A stretch of DNA of 64,000 nucleotides from Prevotella sp. (GTDB lineage Bacteria; Bacteroidota; Bacteroidia; Bacteroidales; Bacteroidaceae): contig JAFTGB010000072.1 of NCBI GenBank assembly GCA_017458125.1, positions 25,585 through 89,584 of the forward strand, read 5' to 3'. The translations under genes and the position numbers were made by a program. The notes below the pieces were generated by a model. It had not been told where the DNA came from and did no database searches. It saw only the letters and a list, made by a program, of their open reading frames with translations. Of the stretch, positions 49,659 to 60,174 are shown in pieces (position 1 is the first letter of the stretch; each line of letters opens with the position of its first letter).

Positions 49659-52193
49659 ATGACATTAGACAAGTTTACAATCAAAGCACAGGAAGCCGTA
49701 CAAGAGGCCGTCAACACGGCACAGCGCGGCGGACAGCAGATGATAGAGCCCATACACCTGCTGGCAGGCGTAATGGCCAAGGCCAAGGACGTCACCAACT
49801 ACCTGTTTCAGAAACTGGGCATCAACGGACAGCAGATAGAGACGCTCGTCCAGAGCGAACTGCAGCACCTGCCCCGTGTGACGGGCGGCGAACCGTACCT
49901 CTCGGGAGACACCAACAAGGTGTTGCTCAAGGCACAGGACTATACCCAGAAGATGGGCGACGAATTCGTCAGCGTGGAGCCGCTGCTGCTGGCGCTGCTC
50001 ACCGACGGCGGAACGGCAGGGCGCATCATGAAGGATGCAGGCATGACGGAGAAGGAACTGCGCGCCGCCATAGCCGCCCTCAGGCAGGGACAGAAGGTGC
50101 AGTCGCAGTCGGCCGACGACAACTACCAGTCGTTGGAGAAGTACGCCAAGAACCTCGTCCTGCTGGCACGCCAGGGCAAGCTCGACCCCGTCATAGGCCG
50201 CGACGACGAGATACGCCGTCTGTTGCAGATTCTGAGTCGACGCACCAAGAACAATCCTATATTAATAGGTGAACCGGGAACGGGTAAGACGGCCATCGTC
50301 GAGGGACTGGCTGGACGTATTGTGCGCGGCGACGTGCCAGAGAACCTGAAGGACAAGCAGCTCTACTCGTTAGATATGGGTGCACTGGTGGCCGGTGCCA
50401 AGTACAAAGGTGAATTTGAGGAGCGACTGAAGAGCGTCATCAACGAGGTGACGAAGGCCGATGGGCGCATCATCCTCTTCATCGACGAGATACACACGCT
50501 GGTGGGAGCAGGCGGCGGCGAGGGTGCCATGGATGCCGCCAACATCCTGAAACCGGCACTGGCCCGTGGCGAGCTGCGGGCTATCGGCGCCACCACGCTG
50601 AACGAATATCAGAAGTATTTCGAGAAGGACAAAGCCTTGGAGCGACGCTTCCAGACGGTCATGGTGGACGAACCCGACGAGCTGTCGGCCATCAGCATCC
50701 TGCGCGGACTGAAGGAACGTTATGAGAACCACCACAAGGTGCGCATACAGGACGATGCCTGTATTGCTGCCGTGCAGCTGTCGGAGCGTTACATCACAGA
50801 GCGCTTCCTGCCCGACAAGGCCATCGACCTGATGGACGAGGCGGCAGCCAAGCTGCGCATGGAGCGCGACAGCGTGCCCGAGGAGTTAGACGAGATAACC
50901 CGCCGACTGGCTCAACTGGAGATTGAGCGTGAAAGCATCAAAAGGGAAGCCCCCCTGTCATCCCCCGAGGGGGACACGAATATCCATTCCTCGAAGATGG
51001 AACAGATGGAGAAGCAGATTGCCGAGTTGCGTGAACAGGAGACGCAGATGCGTGCCCAATGGGAAAGCGAGAAGTCACTCTCAGACAAGTTCCAACAGGT
51101 GAAAGAAAGCATAGAGCAACTGAGATTTGAAGCTGAGCGTGCCGAACACGAGGGCAACTACGGACGGGTGGCCGAGATACGCTATGGACTGTTGAAGCAA
51201 AAGGAAGAAGAGCTGAACGCCCTGCAAGCCCAAATAAAAGCCTCCCCTCGGGGAGGTTTGGAGGGGGCCGTCACTGCCGACGACATTGCCGAGGTGGTAA
51301 GCCGCTGGACGGGCATACCGGTCAGCCGCATGCTGCAAAGCGAACGCGAAAAGCTGCTGCACTTGGAGGAAGAGCTGCACAAACGCGTCATCGGACAAGA
51401 CGAAGCCATACAGGCCGTCAGCGATGCCGTACGCCGCAGCCGCGCAGGACTGCAAGACCCGAAACGCCCCATTGCCTCGTTCATATTCCTTGGCACCACG
51501 GGCGTCGGTAAGACGGAGCTGGCCAAGGCTCTGGCCGAATACCTGTTCAACGACGAGCAGATGATGACGCGTATCGACATGTCGGAGTATCAGGAGAAGC
51601 ACACCGTCAGCCGACTGGTCGGTGCTCCTCCGGGCTACGTGGGCTACGATGAGGGCGGCCAGCTGACGGAGGCCGTGCGACGGAAGCCGTACAGCGTGGT
51701 ACTGTTCGACGAGATAGAGAAGGCACACCCTGACGTGTTCAACATCCTGCTGCAGGTGTTAGACGACGGACGGCTGACGGACAACAAGGGACGCACGGCC
51801 AACTTCAAGAACACCATCATCATCATGACCAGCAACGCCACGCGTGAACAGCTGCGCATGACCATGCGACCGGAGTTCCTGAACCGCATAGACGAAACCA
51901 TCACCTTCCAACAGCTGACGCAGCAACAGATAGCCGACGTGGTGCGGCTGCAGATGAAGCGCCTCTGCGACATGCTGGAACCGCAGGGTATCAAACTGCA
52001 AATCACCGACCAGGCCGTCAACTTCCTGGCTCAGGAGGGCTACGACCCTGACTTCGGAGCACGTCCGGTGAAGAGGGCCATACAGCATCTGGTACTCAAC
52101 GACTTGTCACGCAAGATACTGGCCGACCAGATAGACCGCTCGAAACCCATCATCATCGACGAGTTCGGCGAGGGTCTGGTGTTCCGCAACTAA
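49659..52193 (+). CDS. clpB: ClpB disaggregase with altered M-domain edges
   Basis: The 844-residue AAA+ chaperone reactivates aggregated proteins with DnaK. The N-domain (~1-145) is followed by D1 with Walker A GEPGTGKT (~204), Walker [10 protein letters not shown] and the RRFQTV region. The coiled-coil M-domain is at ~405-525, and D2 has [10 protein letters not shown] and [13 protein letters not shown], ending GEGLVFRN. Three oddities: around residue 430 (50947-50984) and residue 527 (51237-51271) the frame runs through C/G-rich palindromes that look inserted (APLSSPEGD and ASPRGGLEG), and after the D2 sensor Asn (MTSN, ~726) only [10 protein letters not shown] precedes RPEFLNRID, about 20-25 residues fewer than usual. 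All nucleotide-binding motifs remain intact, so it is probably functional. Confidence 0.96.
50947..50984. repeat. Palindromic C/G-rich element inside clpB (first)
   Basis: A stretch of AGCCCCCC type precedes TCCCCC-GA-GGGGGA, a perfect 6-bp stem. It reads through in frame within the start of the M-domain. It looks like an intergenic palindrome inserted into the gene. Confidence 0.6.
51237..51271. repeat. Palindromic C/G-rich element inside clpB (second)
   Basis: CCTCCCC-TC-GGGGAGG (51241-51256) is a perfect 7-bp stem followed by TTTGGAGGGGG, resembling extragenic palindromes of Bacteroidetes genomes. It encodes [11 protein letters not shown] at the M-domain/D2 junction. Confidence 0.65.
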
Positions 52194-52207
52194 GTCCCGC
52201 AGGACCC

Positions 52208-52246
52208 AAGCACCTCAGCGCATTGAAGCCTGAGGTGCTTTTTCTT
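52208..52246 (+). terminator. Terminator after clpB
   Basis: AAGCACCTCAG (52208-52218) pairs with CTGAGGTGCTT (52230-52240), followed by TTTC-TTTT. Confidence 0.9.
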
Positions 52247-52328
52247 TTACTACCCGTCATTTTATCAGAGAGTGATGCAATAATAGGGCGAAAAGGTAGT
52301 TATATTATTATAGACAGACTGTTTGCTT

Positions 52329-53405
52329 ATGACAATATATCTACTCGGTGCCTTTTTGTTGAGCTTAATATGTGGGTTTGTGTTCACGCCCATCATCCTT
52401 GATTTCTGTAAACGGAAGAAGCTATACGACATTCCCAACGAACGCAAGGTACACAAGAATGCCGTGCCCAGACTGGGCGGCATCTCCTTCTTTCCCAGCA
52501 TGCTGACAGCCTTCATCGTGGTGCTGACGTTCTTGCCCTTGCAGGAGCAGCACACATTGCCTGTCAATATCTGGAGCGCCGTGTTCCTGATAGGTTTGAT
52601 GATTATCTACGTGACGGGCATCATTGACGACCTGCTCGGACTGAACGCCACGACCAAGTTCACCATTCAGATTGCTGCCGCCTGTCTGCCGCCTTTCGCA
52701 GGACTTCACATCAACAACCTGTACGGACTGTTCGGCATCGAGGCCATACCAGCCTACGTGGGCATACCGCTGACCATCTTCATCATCGTGTTTATCGTCA
52801 ACGCCATCAACCTCATCGACGGTATTGACGGACTGGCTGCGGGACTCTCGCTGATAGCCTTGGGCGGATTTCTGGCCTACTTCATCCATTACGGCGTGTT
52901 CACGAACACCTACTCCATCCTTGCCGCAGGACTGATAGGTGCACTGATCGCTTTCTGCTACTTCAACCTGTTTGGCAGCACCGAGCGCAACACCAAGATA
53001 TTCATGGGCGACTCAGGAAGCCTCTCATTAGGATTTACACTGGGCTTCCTGGCCATCAAGTGCGCGTCGGACAACACAGCCATCTGGCCCACCCGACCGG
53101 AGGCCATCATCGTGCCGCTGACCCTGCTCTTCGTGCCTACGGCCGACGTGGTCAGGGTGACACTGTACCGCATGCGCCACCACAAACCGCTGTTCATCGC
53201 CGACAAGAACCACATCCATCACAAACTGATGCAGGCAGGACTGACACAGCACCAGACGCTGGCCGTCATCACGGTGCTGGCACTGTGCTACATAGCCATC
53301 AACAGTCTGCTCTACCCCATACTGCCACAGACAGCCATCGTCATCATAGACATCCTGCTCTTCTGCAGCGTCAACGTCTGCATCAACATCAAGAAAAAAC
53401 AATAG
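52329..53405 (+). CDS. WecA/MraY-family undecaprenyl-phosphate sugar-1-phosphate transferase
   Basis: About 358 residues from ATG 52329 (an in-frame TTG at 52323 is possible). It is a polytopic inner-membrane protein with roughly ten hydrophobic segments. Family motifs are ERKVHKNAVPRLGG, VTGIIDDLLGLN (the Asp pair that binds Mg), NAINLIDGIDGLAAGL, FMGDSGSLSLGF and the HIHHKLMQAGLTQHQ loop typical of the WecA/TagO branch. These enzymes load a sugar phosphate, usually GlcNAc, onto undecaprenyl phosphate to start cell-envelope glycan synthesis. The gene ends 6 bp before the sugar transferase-Wzi fusion. No consensus promoter was seen in the gap after the clpB terminator. Confidence 0.92.
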   Translation: MTIYLLGAFLLSLICGFVFTPIILDFCKRKKLYDIPNERKVHKNAVPRLGGISFFPSMLTAFIVVLTFLPLQEQHTLPVNIWSAVFLIGLMIIYVTGIIDDLLGLNATTKFTIQIAAACLPPFAGLHINNLYGLFGIEAIPAYVGIPLTIFIIVFIVNAINLIDGIDGLAAGLSLIALGGFLAYFIHYGVFTNTYSILAAGLIGALIAFCYFNLFGSTERNTKIFMGDSGSLSLGFTLGFLAIKCASDNTAIWPTRPEAIIVPLTLLFVPTADVVRVTLYRMRHHKPLFIADKNHIHHKLMQAGLTQHQTLAVITVLALCYIAINSLLYPILPQTAIVIIDILLFCSVNVCINIKKKQ

Positions 53406-53411
53406 TACCGC

Positions 53412-55460
53412 ATGAAACGCGTTCTCGATATCATCATCTCGGCTTTGTGCCTCATCCTCTTCTCACCGCTAATGCTCCTGTGCTTTCTGGCCATCAAGAT
53501 AGGAGGCGGACCAGCCATCTACCGGCAGGAACGCATAGGACTGGGCGGACGCCCGTTCTACATCCTGAAATTCCGCACCATGGTGGTGGACGCCGAGAAG
53601 GAGGGGGAGGAACTGCTGCAGCAGGAGAACGACCCGAGGCTGACCAAGATAGGGCGCTTCCTGCGCAACCACCATTTAGACGAACTGCCCCAGCTGTGGA
53701 ACGTGCTGGTGGGCGACATGGCCTTCGTGGGGCCGCGGCCGGAGCGGAAATACTACATCGACCAGATTATGAAACGCGACCCGCGCTACGAACGGCTCTA
53801 CGTCCTGCGGCCGGGCGTCACCAGCTATGCCACACTCAAGAACGGCTATACCGACACCATCGACAAGATGCTGGTGAGGCTGGAGATGGACCTCTACTAC
53901 TTGGAACACCAATCACTCGTAACAGACATGAAAATACTCTTTATGACCTTTGGAAAGATTGTCTCTGGACGTATCTTCATCCTTGCCGCCTGCATGCTGC
54001 TCTCACCGGCAGCAGAGGCACAGGACTCGCTACGTACGCACGTCAGCTATGACCTGACGGCAGAGACCGCCGTGGGCACGGGCGACTACACCGCTTACCA
54101 GTTGGTGACCAACCGCCACCACACACTGGCCACCAGAGCCAACACGGCCTACGTGCGCGGGGCTGTCAGCATTGAACACGCCTTCAGCAAAGACTGGAAA
54201 CTGACGGGGGCCGTGGACGCCATTGCCGCCGTGCACGCCGACCACAAGGCGTACCTGCAGCAGTGCTACGCCAACGTGCAGTGGAAACACTTCTTCCTGG
54301 AAGTAGGCAGCAGGGAGCAGCAGCAGGTGGTGCGCGACAACCTGCTCTCCATCGGCTCCTTCATCAAAGGCACCAACGCCAAGCCCATCCCGCAAGTGCA
54401 CTTCGGCACTGACGGCTTCTGGGACGTGCCCTTCACCAAGCAGTGGGTGCAGATAGACTTCGACTTCGGCTATGGCAAGTTCATAGACAGCAACTACCGC
54501 AAAGACGTATTCCAACAGTCGGGCAACGCCAACTACCAGTACGCCACGGGAGCCTACTACCACCAGAAGCACCTCTACATCCGCTCCAACCCCAACAAGC
54601 GTTTCTTCGTCACCGTGGGCATTGAGCATGCCGCACAGTTTGGCGGCACCAACTACAGCTACATTGACGGTGTGCTGACACCGAAGGAGAAACCGCACAA
54701 CCTGAAAGCCTTCTGGAAGGTGATACTGCCCATCGGCGACAGCAACTATTTCGAGAACAACGCACTGGAAGACTGGGTCTACGGCAATCATATCGGCGTG
54801 ATGACCTACCAGTTAGGATGGAACATCAACAAAGACCACCAGCTGCAGGTCTACTTGGACAACCCCTTCGAGGATGGTTCCGGCGTGCGCAAAGGCAACG
54901 GCTTCGACGGCCTGTGGGGCATGCAGTACAGCAACAAGGCCCAAGGCAGGCAGTATGTGCGCGGTGCCGTGTTCGAGTATTTCCAGAGCACCAACCAGAG
55001 CGGTCCCCTGCACTGGGACAGCGGCGACTATCCTGAACCTGCACGCAGCCAGATTACCGACAAGGTGACGGGCAACGACAACTACTACAACCACGGGTTC
55101 TACGACAGCTATGCCCACTACGGCATGACACCGGGCATAGCACTCATCACCTCACCTATATATAATAAGGATGGCCAAAGCTCGTACCGCGACAACCGCG
55201 TCAAGGCATGGCATGTGGGCATCAACGGCGAACTGACCGACCACCTCTCCTACGTCGTCAAGGGTTCTTACCGCCAAGGATGGGGCACCTACAACCACCC
55301 CCTGCCGGAAAAGAACCACTCCTTCGACGCCATGGTACAAGGACTCTACCACCAAGGGCCGTGGCAGTTTGGTGCCGCCTTTGCCTTCGACAAGGGCAAC
55401 ATTTACGGTGACTGTACTACGTTCAACTTCAAAATAGGCTATCATGGAAAGATTCTATAA
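53412..55460 (+). CDS. In-frame fusion: initiating sugar transferase (PglC/WbaP-like) + Wzi-type outer-membrane barrel
   Basis: 682 residues in one uninterrupted frame. Residues 1-188 are a complete bacterial sugar transferase: N-terminal membrane segment (IIISALCLILFSPLMLLCFL), IYRQERIGLGG, KFRTMV, DPRLTKIGRFLR, DELPQLWNVLVGDMAFVGPR and RPGVTSYA, ending at the usual C-terminus KILFMTFGKIVSG. This runs straight into RIFILAACMLLSPAAEAQ (~187-204), a near-perfect signal peptide, and then a Wzi/capsule-assembly-type beta-barrel (~205-682). The first part acts at the cytoplasmic face of the inner membrane and the second in the outer membrane, so processing at AEA-Q by signal peptidase is the simplest reconciliation. 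The internal ATGs at 53928 and 53943 have no Shine-Dalgarno sequence. Confidence 0.85.
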   Translation: MKRVLDIIISALCLILFSPLMLLCFLAIKIGGGPAIYRQERIGLGGRPFYILKFRTMVVDAEKEGEELLQQENDPRLTKIGRFLRNHHLDELPQLWNVLVGDMAFVGPRPERKYYIDQIMKRDPRYERLYVLRPGVTSYATLKNGYTDTIDKMLVRLEMDLYYLEHQSLVTDMKILFMTFGKIVSGRIFILAACMLLSPAAEAQDSLRTHVSYDLTAETAVGTGDYTAYQLVTNRHHTLATRANTAYVRGAVSIEHAFSKDWKLTGAVDAIAAVHADHKAYLQQCYANVQWKHFFLEVGSREQQQVVRDNLLSIGSFIKGTNAKPIPQVHFGTDGFWDVPFTKQWVQIDFDFGYGKFIDSNYRKDVFQQSGNANYQYATGAYYHQKHLYIRSNPNKRFFVTVGIEHAAQFGGTNYSYIDGVLTPKEKPHNLKAFWKVILPIGDSNYFENNALEDWVYGNHIGVMTYQLGWNINKDHQLQVYLDNPFEDGSGVRKGNGFDGLWGMQYSNKAQGRQYVRGAVFEYFQSTNQSGPLHWDSGDYPEPARSQITDKVTGNDNYYNHGFYDSYAHYGMTPGIALITSPIYNKDGQSSYRDNRVKAWHVGINGELTDHLSYVVKGSYRQGWGTYNHPLPEKNHSFDAMVQGLYHQGPWQFGAAFAFDKGNIYGDCTTFNFKIGYHGKIL

Positions 55461-55833
55461 ACACATCCTCGTCTTATTGACAACTTGCTGCTTCGTAACA
55501 CTCAGCTCCTGCCAGGAAGGCAGCGAGGCCGGCGACCTGTTAGGACAATGGCGCATGACGGGTTCCGACACCCACTTCATCAGCTTCTCCGGCACGGTGA
55601 GCGGGTTCAGAATCATCAACGAAGCAGAAGTGTTCGGCAAGTTCCAACACAGCGGCGACAGCCTCTTCATACAGTGCGTCTCCATCAACGGCACTAAGAA
55701 GGACACCACCGTGGTGGAGGAGATATACGGCATGAAACCCTTCACCAACATACGGCTGAAGATAGAGACGCTGAACAGCGACCGACTGGAACTGAGCAAG
55801 GGCAGTCAGCGCTGGAGCTTCTACAAATACTGA
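55444..55833 (+). CDS. Lipocalin-like lipoprotein
   Basis: The 129-residue protein starts MERFYKHILVLLTTCCFVTLSSCQEG, a lipoprotein signal with Cys at ~23. The rest is a small beta-barrel-like domain (LLGQWRMTGSD, FGKFQHSGDSLFIQC, IRLKIETLNSDRLEL, GSQRWSFYKY) resembling the lipocalin-like domains common in Bacteroidetes. Its start overlaps the end of the fusion gene by 17 bp, implying coupled expression and a role beside the Wzi-like barrel, perhaps in surface polysaccharide handling. The function is unknown. Confidence 0.8.
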   Translation: MERFYKHILVLLTTCCFVTLSSCQEGSEAGDLLGQWRMTGSDTHFISFSGTVSGFRIINEAEVFGKFQHSGDSLFIQCVSINGTKKDTTVVEEIYGMKPFTNIRLKIETLNSDRLELSKGSQRWSFYKY

Positions 55834-55989: not shown

Positions 55990-57948
55990 ATGAACGCCAC
56001 TACAAAGAACAAAGCTGTTTGGATGCTTTTTCATGCTCTGGCCTTTTGTGCAGTGTTACTAACTTCATGCACAGACAAGGGAGGGGAAGATGAAAGACAA
56101 GAGGGCACACCTCTTGTTCCTACTGTTGCGGACAAATCAACATACACGCTGACTGTTTCTGCCGCTAAGGCTGGCTTACCATCAGCATCGTTCGCCAAAG
56201 GCGAAGCGATGGAAATGTACTGGCAAGACGACAACAAGGACTACCAGCATTTAGGAACACTGACGGCCCTGAGCGAAGGAAAAGCTACAATACTGACTGG
56301 AGAGCTGTCACTCCCTGCTGCCCTGACAAAAGCCAACAAAAGCGGTACTGTCACACTGCTTGGCTATTCCCCTACGGTTCAGTGGGACATTACAGGACAA
56401 GACGGAACACAGGAGACGCTCTCACAACACTACTTCTTCAGCACAGCGGAAATCAATATCCCTGCCAACGGGCTGGATGAGCAGCAGAAAAACGTGGTGC
56501 TACCCAACACGACATACACCCTGACACACGCACTGCCCATCGTACACTACACGCTACGAGACCATTCAGGCAATGCCATTGCTGCCAACAGGCTGGTAGT
56601 GTCGTCAGCCACAGCGCAAGGAGAAGAGGCTATCAGCATCAAAGGAAACTGGCAGCAAGGAGCCCAAGAGCAAGGAGCTGTTGACATCACGGCCAATAAA
56701 GCAGCCAGCGACTTCTGGGTAGCACTTTCCTGACAAGGAGGCGAGGCTGCACCATATACCATTACGGCTTATACCGACAGCGAGGTCTTTGTCTGCCATC
56801 TGGAAAACGCGGCTTACAGCCCGGAAGGCTACCATGAGGAAACGCTCACGATGAACCGCATCACTGAAGCCTGCATCACGGGGAAAGTCGTGTACCCCAA
56901 CTACCCTAACCTCACCAACTACAACTTCGTCTATCCCTCGACAGGACCTTTTGGTGAACCCGTCATGCTGTCCGGCACCATGACGATGGGGCGCGAGATG
57001 CTGCCCGGCACCAAAGGACGTGGACTGATATTATACAACCACTATACCGTCTGCAAGGCCGACGAATGTCCTTCCGCCGGAAAGCTGGACATGCAGCAGC
57101 TGCTGGGACTCATGATTCCCAACAGTAAGCTCATCACCATTTCTGCCGACTACTACGGTTTTGGCGAGACGGGAGACAAATTGCAAGCCTACTGCATTCC
57201 AAGCATCAATGCGCGGGCATCGCTTGATGCACTCATGGCTGGCAGACAGCTATTGAAGGAAGAAGGCTTCATCTGGGATGAGGACGAACTGCTGAACATC
57301 GGCTATTCGCAGGGCGCGCAGACGGCCATTGCCGTACAGCGACTCGTTGACGAGCACTATCCGGACATCCACATCACACGTACCATGGCTGGCGGAGGCC
57401 CCTATGACATGGAAGAGACCTACAGACAGTTCGTCACCTCAGGGAAGAGCGGAATGCCATCCACGGTGATCAGCGTGCTGTTGACCTACAACGAATACTT
57501 CCGGCTTGGACTACCATTAAGCAGCATGTTTATCGAGCCAACGCTGAGTCATATTGACGAATGGATAACCAGCAAGCAACTGACCAGTACGGAGATAGAC
57601 AAGAATGTGGGTACACAAGAACTCAAGGCGCTCGTAGCACCGGCCTTGCTCGACCTTGACTCTGACATCTCCCGAAAAGTGATGGCAGCACTCAGCAAGG
57701 AAACCCTCTGCCGGGGATGGGTTCCAAACAAAGACGACGACATTCTGCTGGTTCATCACGAGAAGGACAGCACCGTCCCCGTAGAGAACACGCAGAGTCT
57801 ATACCGGTTCCTTCAGGAGCAAGGCGTCAGAAACGTAGAACTGAAGGTCGGCAACTTCTTCTCCTTAGGACAGCAGGATCACCTCAGCGGAGCAACCGTA
57901 TTCTTATCGCTCGTCTACAAGTGGACACGAGAACACTATGGTTATTAA
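55990..57948 (+). pseudogene. Secreted alpha/beta-hydrolase lipoprotein interrupted by an in-frame TGA
   Basis: The reading frame from ATG 55990 to the stop at 57946-57948 would encode about 652 residues, but codon 248 (56731-56733) is TGA. The frame continues unchanged on the other side (QGGEAAPYTITAYTDSEV), so a single substitution explains it. The N-terminal part is a lipoprotein (VLLTSCTDKGG) with a fimbrillin-like beta domain. The C-terminal part (from ~295) is an alpha/beta hydrolase with nucleophile elbow IGYSQGAQ, Asp in HHEKDSTVP and His in GQQDHLSGA, paralogous to the enzyme at 58336. A restart at ATG 56851 has no Shine-Dalgarno and no signal peptide. It is probably a broken gene; recoding or a base-call error are alternatives. 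Confidence 0.8.
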
Positions 57949-58335: not shown

Positions 58336-60174
58336 ATGAAAAAACTATTATTCGCGTTATTGGCTTTGACTTTCTGCATGGTTGCCAATGCAAAAGTCAT
58401 CAAAATCACGATGTCCGGTGGTTATACCAAGGTGTATGCCTCCAGCCAGCTGGAGTCCATCAACTTCAACGATGACGGAACCATCACCGTGATGGGCTAC
58501 GACTACAAAGTGCTGGAAACACTGGACCCCGAGCTCGTCGAAATCGAGATTGACGACGAGGAGGAAACCTATGAATACCGCAACCAAACCGTGGAGTTCA
58601 GCCTGGAATTGGCGAACTTAGGCGACGGTCCGCTGTTCACTCGTACCGTACGCCGCATCAACTTCGTCTACCCGAGCACTGACCCCTTCGGCGACCCCAT
58701 CACCCTTAGCGGCACCATTCTCATCCCGTTTAACATCTGGAGGGGGGAGGCCAAGAGCGAAGGTATCCTGCTGTTCAACCACTTCACCGTGTTCAACAAA
58801 GACGAAGCACCCTCGCGAGGCTATGCATACCTGGAGGGCATGTTCCTGGCCAATCCGCTGAACCCCAACTACATCGTCGTTGAGAGCGACTACTATGGTT
58901 TTGGTGTAACCGAACGCTTCCCACAGGCATACATACAAGGTACGGTCAATGCTCGTGCCAACCTGGACTGCCTGCTGGCTGCACGCCGTCTGCTAAAGGA
59001 TATCGGCGTAAAAGCCGGTCCGCTGACGTTCAACTTAGGCTACTCAAGCGGCGGCTTCGAGGCTTTGGCCACACAGAAGCTCCGCGACATGGAGTATGCT
59101 GACCAAATCAGCTTCGACAAGACCTTTGCCGGCGGTTCGCCTTCCGACATCAGGGAGTGCTACCGTCAGTACGTCGAAATCAACCACACGGCCTACAATG
59201 CCGTACCGCCCCTGCTGATGGTGTCTACTAACGAAATCCAACAGCTGGGCAAGACCTACGAGGAAATCTTCGTACCGGAGGTTGCCGACAACGTCGACAA
59301 ATACATCAATTCAAAGATGTACACCTCATGGGAGGTGTGCGACATGATTGGACGCGAAAAGAACGTGGACGAAATTCTGACAGCGGAATACTGCAACCTG
59401 GAGAGCAGCAACAGCAAGGAAATACAAGACGTGCTGCACAACATCAGCATCACCAACGATGACGACTGGACACCTGACCCCAGTCAGAAAATCTATGTGA
59501 TGCACTCGCGTGACGACGACTATGTGCCCGTCCAGTCGGCCCGTCCCATCATCCCCTACCTGCAGGAGCGCGGATACGAACCCAGCATCATCCCGGGACT
59601 GACCAATCTGCAAACCAACTTCGTCATTCCCAAGCTGGGTCACCTGTCGGCTACAGCCGTCTATCTGGTGCAGAGTCTGGCCGCTGTTGCAGCATGGCCG
59701 CTCATGTATAAGAACGGTGAAATGATTTCCCCATACAAAGAGCTTCTTCAGGTGGCCGCCACCGACCCTGTCTCCATCCTACGCTACCTTGACTCCCAGG
59801 GAATGGACTGCCGCGCCCTCATCAATGAGTTCGCCCAGCGTATTTCCAGCATGATGGAAAGCGGAGGTGGCAGCATTTCCATTGACCCGGCTAAATTGCA
59901 GACCATTCTTCAGCAGATTAGCGAGAAGTTAGGTTTCACGCTCAGCGACCTGAACGAGATGCTGTCCGACTCTGGCATTGACATGATGAAACTCTTCTCA
60001 GACTTTGTCGAGTACATGAATGAGCATCCCGAAGAGGTTATTGTGGAGCCTGAGCCCGCACCCGTGGCTCCTGCCATGCTTCGTGCTGCCAAAGTCAAGC
60101 AGCAGACACCCGCTCAGGAATATGAGCAGCAGCTCTACGACTGGCTGTCGGCCAACGGCGTCAAGACCAAGTAA
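58336..60174 (+). CDS. Secreted alpha/beta hydrolase (esterase/lipase-like)
   Basis: The 612-residue protein has a signal peptide (MKKLLFALLALTFCMVANA), a short beta domain (~20-80), then an alpha/beta hydrolase: FVYPSTDPFGDPITLSGTI, ILLFNHFTVFNKDEAPS, ESDYYGFGVTERFPQAY, nucleophile elbow LGYSSGGFEALA (Ser ~237), acid in HSRDDDYVP (~393) and base in KLGHLSAT (~436). A C-terminal extension (~480-612) is helical and ends in a Pro/Ala/Glu linker. It is a close relative of the interrupted protein just upstream, so it may have taken over the function. Substrate unknown; secreted lipase or carbohydrate esterase are both possible. Confidence 0.83.
   Translation: MKKLLFALLALTFCMVANAKVIKITMSGGYTKVYASSQLESINFNDDGTITVMGYDYKVLETLDPELVEIEIDDEEETYEYRNQTVEFSLELANLGDGPLFTRTVRRINFVYPSTDPFGDPITLSGTILIPFNIWRGEAKSEGILLFNHFTVFNKDEAPSRGYAYLEGMFLANPLNPNYIVVESDYYGFGVTERFPQAYIQGTVNARANLDCLLAARRLLKDIGVKAGPLTFNLGYSSGGFEALATQKLRDMEYADQISFDKTFAGGSPSDIRECYRQYVEINHTAYNAVPPLLMVSTNEIQQLGKTYEEIFVPEVADNVDKYINSKMYTSWEVCDMIGREKNVDEILTAEYCNLESSNSKEIQDVLHNISITNDDDWTPDPSQKIYVMHSRDDDYVPVQSARPIIPYLQERGYEPSIIPGLTNLQTNFVIPKLGHLSATAVYLVQSLAAVAAWPLMYKNGEMISPYKELLQVAATDPVSILRYLDSQGMDCRALINEFAQRISSMMESGGGSISIDPAKLQTILQQISEKLGFTLSDLNEMLSDSGIDMMKLFSDFVEYMNEHPEEVIVEPEPAPVAPAMLRAAKVKQQTPAQEYEQQLYDWLSANGVKTK

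Follow-up and report, generated by a model that had tools for sequence, protein, structure and literature searches.

An in-frame fusion of a monotopic phosphoglycosyl transferase to a Wzi-type outer-membrane barrel in Prevotella, a predicted precursor for two membranes

The window is a 64,000-nucleotide stretch of Prevotella sp. DNA in which a single open frame of 682 amino acids, running from ATG to TAA, joins a phosphoglycosyl transferase (PGT) to an outer-membrane barrel. The features of the locus are given in Table 1. The gene in front of the fusion encodes a second, polytopic PGT, which we take to be WecA-type. A homologue of the 129-residue gene that follows the fusion lies downstream of the barrel gene in 11 of 12 fetched neighbourhoods. 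Directly upstream of the cassette (window 49659-53411) is a gene that is ClpB-like by eye, and several relatives have genes at this position that look glycosyltransferase-like by eye. Farther downstream, adjacent genes at 56851-57948 and 58336-60174 share similar stretches (NFVYPST.PFG.P, by eye) and are probably tandem secreted hydrolase paralogues.

Table 1. Coordinates of the fusion, its parts and the flanking genes in the window.
Feature	Position	Strand	Remark
Whole fusion	53412..55460	+	Order: complete monotopic PGT, signal-peptide-like segment, Wzi-type barrel
Monotopic PGT, aa 1-189	53412..53978	+	
PGT tail as predicted signal n-region (aa 173-187) with h-/c-region (aa 188-203)	53928..54020	+	
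Internal ATG, codon 173	53928..53930	+	Candidate second barrel start
Predicted mature Wzi-type outer-membrane barrel, aa 204-682, with stop codon	54021..55460	+	
WecA/MraY-type polytopic PGT gene	52329..53405	+	Separate in the window; PF00953 in fused homologues
129-aa gene, lipoprotein-like by eye	55444..55833	+	17-nt overlap with the barrel gene

The first part of the frame is a monotopic PGT of the small-PGT core by both domain and fold. The bacterial sugar transferase profile (PF02397) covers residues 2-184, matching profile positions 1-178 of 179 at 211 bits against a cut-off of 27. A helix pair (2-16 and 18-30) is broken at S18-P19, the D90-E91 and GPRPE motifs are in place, and the re-entrant membrane helix and the PglC/WbaP catalytic fold are both present. 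These catalytic-looking motifs are intact in the fused proteins, for which transfer of sugar-1-phosphate to undecaprenyl phosphate is putative. A Wzi-like barrel fold was found for the second part. The Wzi profile (PF14052) has no match in the window barrel or in the fused protein P0003. It scores 65.2 bits on the fused P0002 against a gathering score of 30.1, and 13 of 15 aligned barrel sequences match it at E<=0.01. When the barrel alignment was searched against PDB sequences, nothing matched at E<=1.

The fusion recurs in other species. A full-length, stop-free frame was found in four of 299 Prevotella genomes searched, and a draw of 398 genomes of the genus, overlapping the 299, contained it in six species: the window genome (G000), G374, G138, G095, G413 and G203. 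Any match at E<=1e-200 was present in 67 of the 398. Among 399 family and 295 order genomes no further fusion appeared at E<=1e-100, a threshold that distant fusions could escape. For comparison of junctions we used the six fused loci and 33 distinct split loci with adjacent PGT and barrel genes, requiring at least 55% barrel identity; six distinct loci whose halves lie farther apart or align only in part were left out of the count.

In all six fused species, 51 nucleotides without stop or indel separate codon 187 from the first aligned barrel residue (D205), an interval that spans 62-229 nucleotides in the 33 adjacent split loci. The fused frames have 682 or 683 codons, and the extra codon is located outside the junction. 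The split PGTs end invariably in [IK]F-stop (33/33), so the natural end of the PGT is F189, and codon 190 (53979) occupies the position of the missing stop. One split locus (L039) already ends in GRIF-stop. The split barrels examined all have an in-frame ATG upstream of the mature part (41/41), and in most of them this ATG opens a brief n-region of basic character (for example MTNK, MRYK or MKYK); the fusions lack both. Because the stop, the spacer, the barrel ATG and the n-region are all gone, the event was a short deletion or its equivalent and not stop loss alone. A preliminary description of the window had read the frame as a true in-frame fusion with a remarkably exact junction, and both points hold: the frame is open over 682 codons, five other species have the fusion, and a junction of 51 nucleotides in all six is beyond chance. 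Its detail needs correction in three respects. The PGT does not end at KIVSG; the signal peptide that it called intact has neither its own ATG nor its own basic n-region, for which two residues of the PGT tail, K182 and R187, substitute; and the loss of a stop codon between neighbouring genes, which it offered as the simpler alternative, is too simple.

Both halves of the fusion are under purifying selection in these comparisons, and the frame appears to have been maintained for a long time. Across 15 pairs of fusions, pN is 0.02-0.17 against a pS of 0.25-0.94 in the PGT, and 0.04-0.27 against 0.31-0.83 in barrel residues 206-320. It is highly improbable that the frame reflects a recently lost stop codon, a decaying gene or an error of sequencing or assembly. 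The six fused genomes are indeed drafts of about 40-270 contigs, and two are metagenome-assembled. Against error or decay stand the recurrence in six species with equal junction length, the lack of any stop or frameshift over 682-683 codons, a PGT pS of at least 0.73 in 13 of the 15 pairs, and the conserved catalytic-looking motifs. Assembly error, or stop loss by itself, is ruled out by the identical junction of the six species together with the missing spacer and ATG. The earlier suggestion to search for fused as against split genomes has its answer in the five further fused species, and the proposed refutation by a want of fused homologues falls away. The fusion is confirmed and is no assembly accident.

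The segment that joins the two halves has the composition of a signal peptide. Its positive charges in the window come from the PGT tail (K182 and R187), and the net charge of codons 173-188 is +2 or +3 in all six fusions. The best 12-residue hydropathy is 2.4-2.5 in the six. The presumed signal-peptidase cut lies between A203 and Q204, after AEA. Alanine at -1 and glutamine at +1 are found in all six fusions, and the -3 residues are A, A, L, S, A and V, the leucine being that of G138. Thus a hydrophobic core, a small residue at -1 and Gln at +1, the marks of a signal peptidase I substrate, are present in 6/6. Of the 41 split barrels, 31 likewise have Q at the equivalent +1 position. Signal peptidase I substrates of the Bacteroidetes habitually carry Gln directly behind the cleavage site, a pattern described as the Q-rule (PMC5837995; PMC10653852). 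Codons 188-205 change rapidly, with pN reaching 0.54, which is usual for signal peptides and gives weak evidence of constraint. Confidence in the AlphaFold model is low around the junction, with pLDDT below 50 at 189-191 and 193-206.

A remnant in another genome provides indirect evidence, at the level of sequence, that the PGT tail and this segment can act alone as a signal peptide. In G282 the barrel gene (L021:1522-3060) is preceded by a TAG and two codons, then reads MKILFKTFEYIVSGSYLCIAFAILCTNNAMA followed by QDSL. Its barrel frame is intact. In front of the barrel stand the closing residues of a PGT tail and then a G374-like signal segment, with the body of the PGT absent. Roughly 1 kb upstream there is a separate, complete PGT gene with 67% identity. 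The ATG at codon 173 could serve this gene as its start. By eye, the gene upstream of the G282 barrel begins like the gene that precedes the three-part fusion of G138, described below.

We propose that the frame is a fixed gene fusion which probably encodes a two-membrane precursor cut by signal peptidase I. The ribosome would make the PGT first, and its re-entrant helix would seat it on the cytoplasmic face of the inner membrane. To Sec, the next ~30 residues would then look like a signal peptide within the chain: the PGT tail would be its n-region, about 10-12 hydrophobic residues its core, and A-x-A followed by Q its end. The barrel would be exported and signal peptidase I would cut before Q204. 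The PGT would stay in the inner membrane, extended by a short stub at its C-terminus, and the barrel would be released for outer-membrane assembly. Such export and cleavage are expected if the PGT lies on the cytoplasmic face, since the charges precede the hydrophobic stretch and the hydrophobic core is short. Every complete PGT chain must carry the barrel, because no stop lies between the halves. The earlier proposals that the parts are destined for two membranes and that the barrel is oriented into the periplasm are supported, and the cut then placed after AEA coincides with a conserved site of signal-peptidase-I type (Ala-Gln in 6/6) at which cleavage is predicted. The further idea of a regulatory tie between glycan initiation and surface assembly is conjecture; the frame itself implies no more than equal synthesis of the two parts.

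That the fusion stays uncut, and works or fails as a single chain held at the inner membrane, seems very unlikely. The Ala-Gln pair has been retained in all six species despite a divergent signal segment, and a tethered barrel could hardly reach the outer membrane, yet the barrel is under purifying selection.

The fused genomes offer no evident substitute for either half. No second barrel match was found in the window genome, a draft, at E<=1e-3, or in the other five fused genomes, likewise drafts, at E<=1e-10; a second barrel gene may have been missed because the drafts are about 85-95% complete. With no other match, the barrel, if it is used, probably comes from the fusion gene. Other PGT matches in these genomes are distant (32-51% identity over the whole or part of the PGT). 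Neither a separate second barrel nor a close PGT copy was found in the fused drafts.

The barrel could also be made separately, a possibility absent from the preliminary description, since five of the six fusions have a rather start-like ATG in the PGT tail. We used a start-site model built from 29 window genes, which is sensitive to A+T content, and scored the genes by leave-one-out. ATG 173 or 177 ranks within the top 2-10% of the internal ATGs of its own locus in these five fusions. In the window, the score of ATG 173 is reached by 3.3% of 398 internal ATGs. The fusion of G138 has no ATG 173, and its ATG 177 scores 8.0, which is typical of real starts. Among split relatives, whose scores are lower on the whole, an ATG occurs in codons 165-182 in 34 of 64, with a median best score of -7.0, and in G282 ATG 173 is the first ATG of the stand-alone barrel frame. 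These points favour a reading in which two overlapping genes share one frame, the barrel being made mainly from codon 173 or 177 and the full-length fusion being a by-product or degraded. Several observations weaken it. The fusion of G203 has no start-like ATG, for its codon 171 scores -10.8, a value reached by 71% of its internal ATGs (TTG 176 was unscored). The five start-like cases may count as one, because they share a branch of the PGT tree (support 94). The scores overlap with those of the split loci, where 4 of the 34 ATGs score above -2 and the best, at 1.3, exceeds three of the start-like fusions. In the window genome, ATG 173 falls below 83% of the leave-one-out gene starts (n=29). 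A methionine in codons 171-178 is shared by 34 of 64 split PGTs and is therefore of little use as a sign of an internal start. Finally, no stop codon closes the PGT in the fusions, and translation of the PGT must therefore yield the fusion protein each time. Taken as the main source of the barrel, an internal start is rather unlikely. It is quite possible that the barrel is also made separately, in addition to the precursor or in its place, with the fusion protein still being made.

The WecA-type gene is joined to the same frame in two of the fused species, a three-part form that the preliminary description did not have. In the window this gene reads in the frame of the PGT and closes with a single TAG, which leaves two codons up to the PGT start (53403-53414). 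The WecA-type and PGT genes stand at a distance of 29 with an ATGA overlap in 14 of the 22 distinct split loci that have a WecA-type gene directly upstream, and the same distance and overlap are seen in the two-part fusions of G095 and G413. The corresponding distance is 30 in G374 and G138, where one frame continues into the other as ..VCINQWIDSNY[M/L]KRA.., placing the WecA-type gene in frame with the PGT-barrel fusion in proteins of 1042 residues (L129:5565-8693 and L128:5413-8541). PF00953 and PF02397 are found in both, and PF14052 in that of G374. In G138 the codon at the position of the usual PGT start is TTG, within the WecA-PGT frame. A WecA-PGT fusion by itself, with 550 codons and a TAA at the usual PGT end, occurs in G218 (L163); the nearest barrel match there (32%) is nearby on the opposite strand. 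In G203 no WecA-type neighbour was found within the 14 kb fetched, and a second, distant PGT (36%; L132:7719-8327) lies directly upstream of the fusion in place of the WecA-type gene. The frames of G374 and G138 may represent a polyprotein for a glycan pathway spanning both membranes, in which two initiating enzymes and a surface barrel are synthesised in equal numbers and then separated by signal peptidase I, a reading to which we would give a little less than an even chance.

We compared phylogenies of the two halves after dropping rows below 55% identity or 85% length, rows containing stops and identical rows. In the PGT tree five fusions, without that of G203, fall on one branch (SH-aLRT 94, not starred), and a single clade of all six is narrowly not rejected (AU p 0.063). 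The full barrel rejects a single clade, with p 1.6e-49 for the six and 1.8e-5 for the five, and the first 110 barrel residues do not (p 0.167). We read this conflict as recombination in the barrel, because the nearest neighbours switch along the barrel in several rows. A single origin with later barrel recombination, or at least two fusion events, may account for the distribution; both fit the data. Barrel halves of several loci (L001, L021, L122 and others) look mosaic, with a nearest neighbour that shifts between segments in a recombination-like manner. In G226 (L015) the barrel closest in the tree to that of G138 has its own signal peptide and lies about 1.2 kb from a less related PGT.

Should the proposed synthesis and cleavage of the precursor take place, one bacterial gene would supply, at a fixed ratio, an enzyme of the inner membrane and a barrel of the outer membrane, and the C-terminus of a cytoplasmic enzyme would have been converted into a working signal peptide. 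The fusion would make it possible to test the way in which Sec and signal peptidase I deal with a signal peptide that follows a membrane-bound enzyme in the same chain. The series of split, two-part, three-part and remnant loci suggests how such fusions may arise and dissolve. Among open-licence papers, searched by their titles and the openings of their abstracts, none describing a PGT-barrel fusion, alone or behind a WecA-type enzyme, turned up.

Close relatives of the fusion are the 33 split PGT/barrel loci of the genus, with which it shares gene order and about 60-84% identity per protein in the loci compared. Unlike the fusion, these have a stop after F189 (33/33) and a barrel with its own ATG (31/31 examined). 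The barrel resembles Wzi (PF14052; PDB 2ynk) in family, by way of its relatives, and in fold. E. coli Wzi is described in part of PMC9601211 as having an N-terminal helical bundle that closes the periplasmic side. The fused barrel has no room for such a bundle, as its strand 209-223 starts five residues past the presumed cut; the bundle is a feature of E. coli Wzi and is not established as defining the whole family. The fused barrel further differs from Wzi in having no start codon or n-region of its own. A role like that of Wzi, which anchors capsule at the cell surface, is putative for it.

Two known arrangements combine functions in a comparable way. The known partners of monotopic PGTs in Bi-PGTs are cytoplasmic sugar enzymes. 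As defined in PMC10942596, Bi-PGTs have a monoPGT core that is extended by another domain at one terminus or the other. The present proteins, in six species, likewise carry an additional domain in frame with a monoPGT core. They differ in what is added: an outer-membrane barrel that follows a predicted internal signal peptide and, in two species, a polytopic PGT in front. A Bi-PGT keeps both activities in one mature polypeptide, which the cleavage predicted here would break. In FbcH of Bradyrhizobium japonicum, the precursor of cytochrome b/c1, the cut falls at a signal sequence inside the chain. FbcH shares with the PGT-barrel fusion one frame for two proteins, an internal signal peptide and a cut by signal peptidase, which is a prediction in the present case. 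The products of FbcH belong to one inner-membrane complex, whereas the parts of the PGT-barrel fusion belong to different membranes. Bi-PGTs and internally cut precursors are already known.
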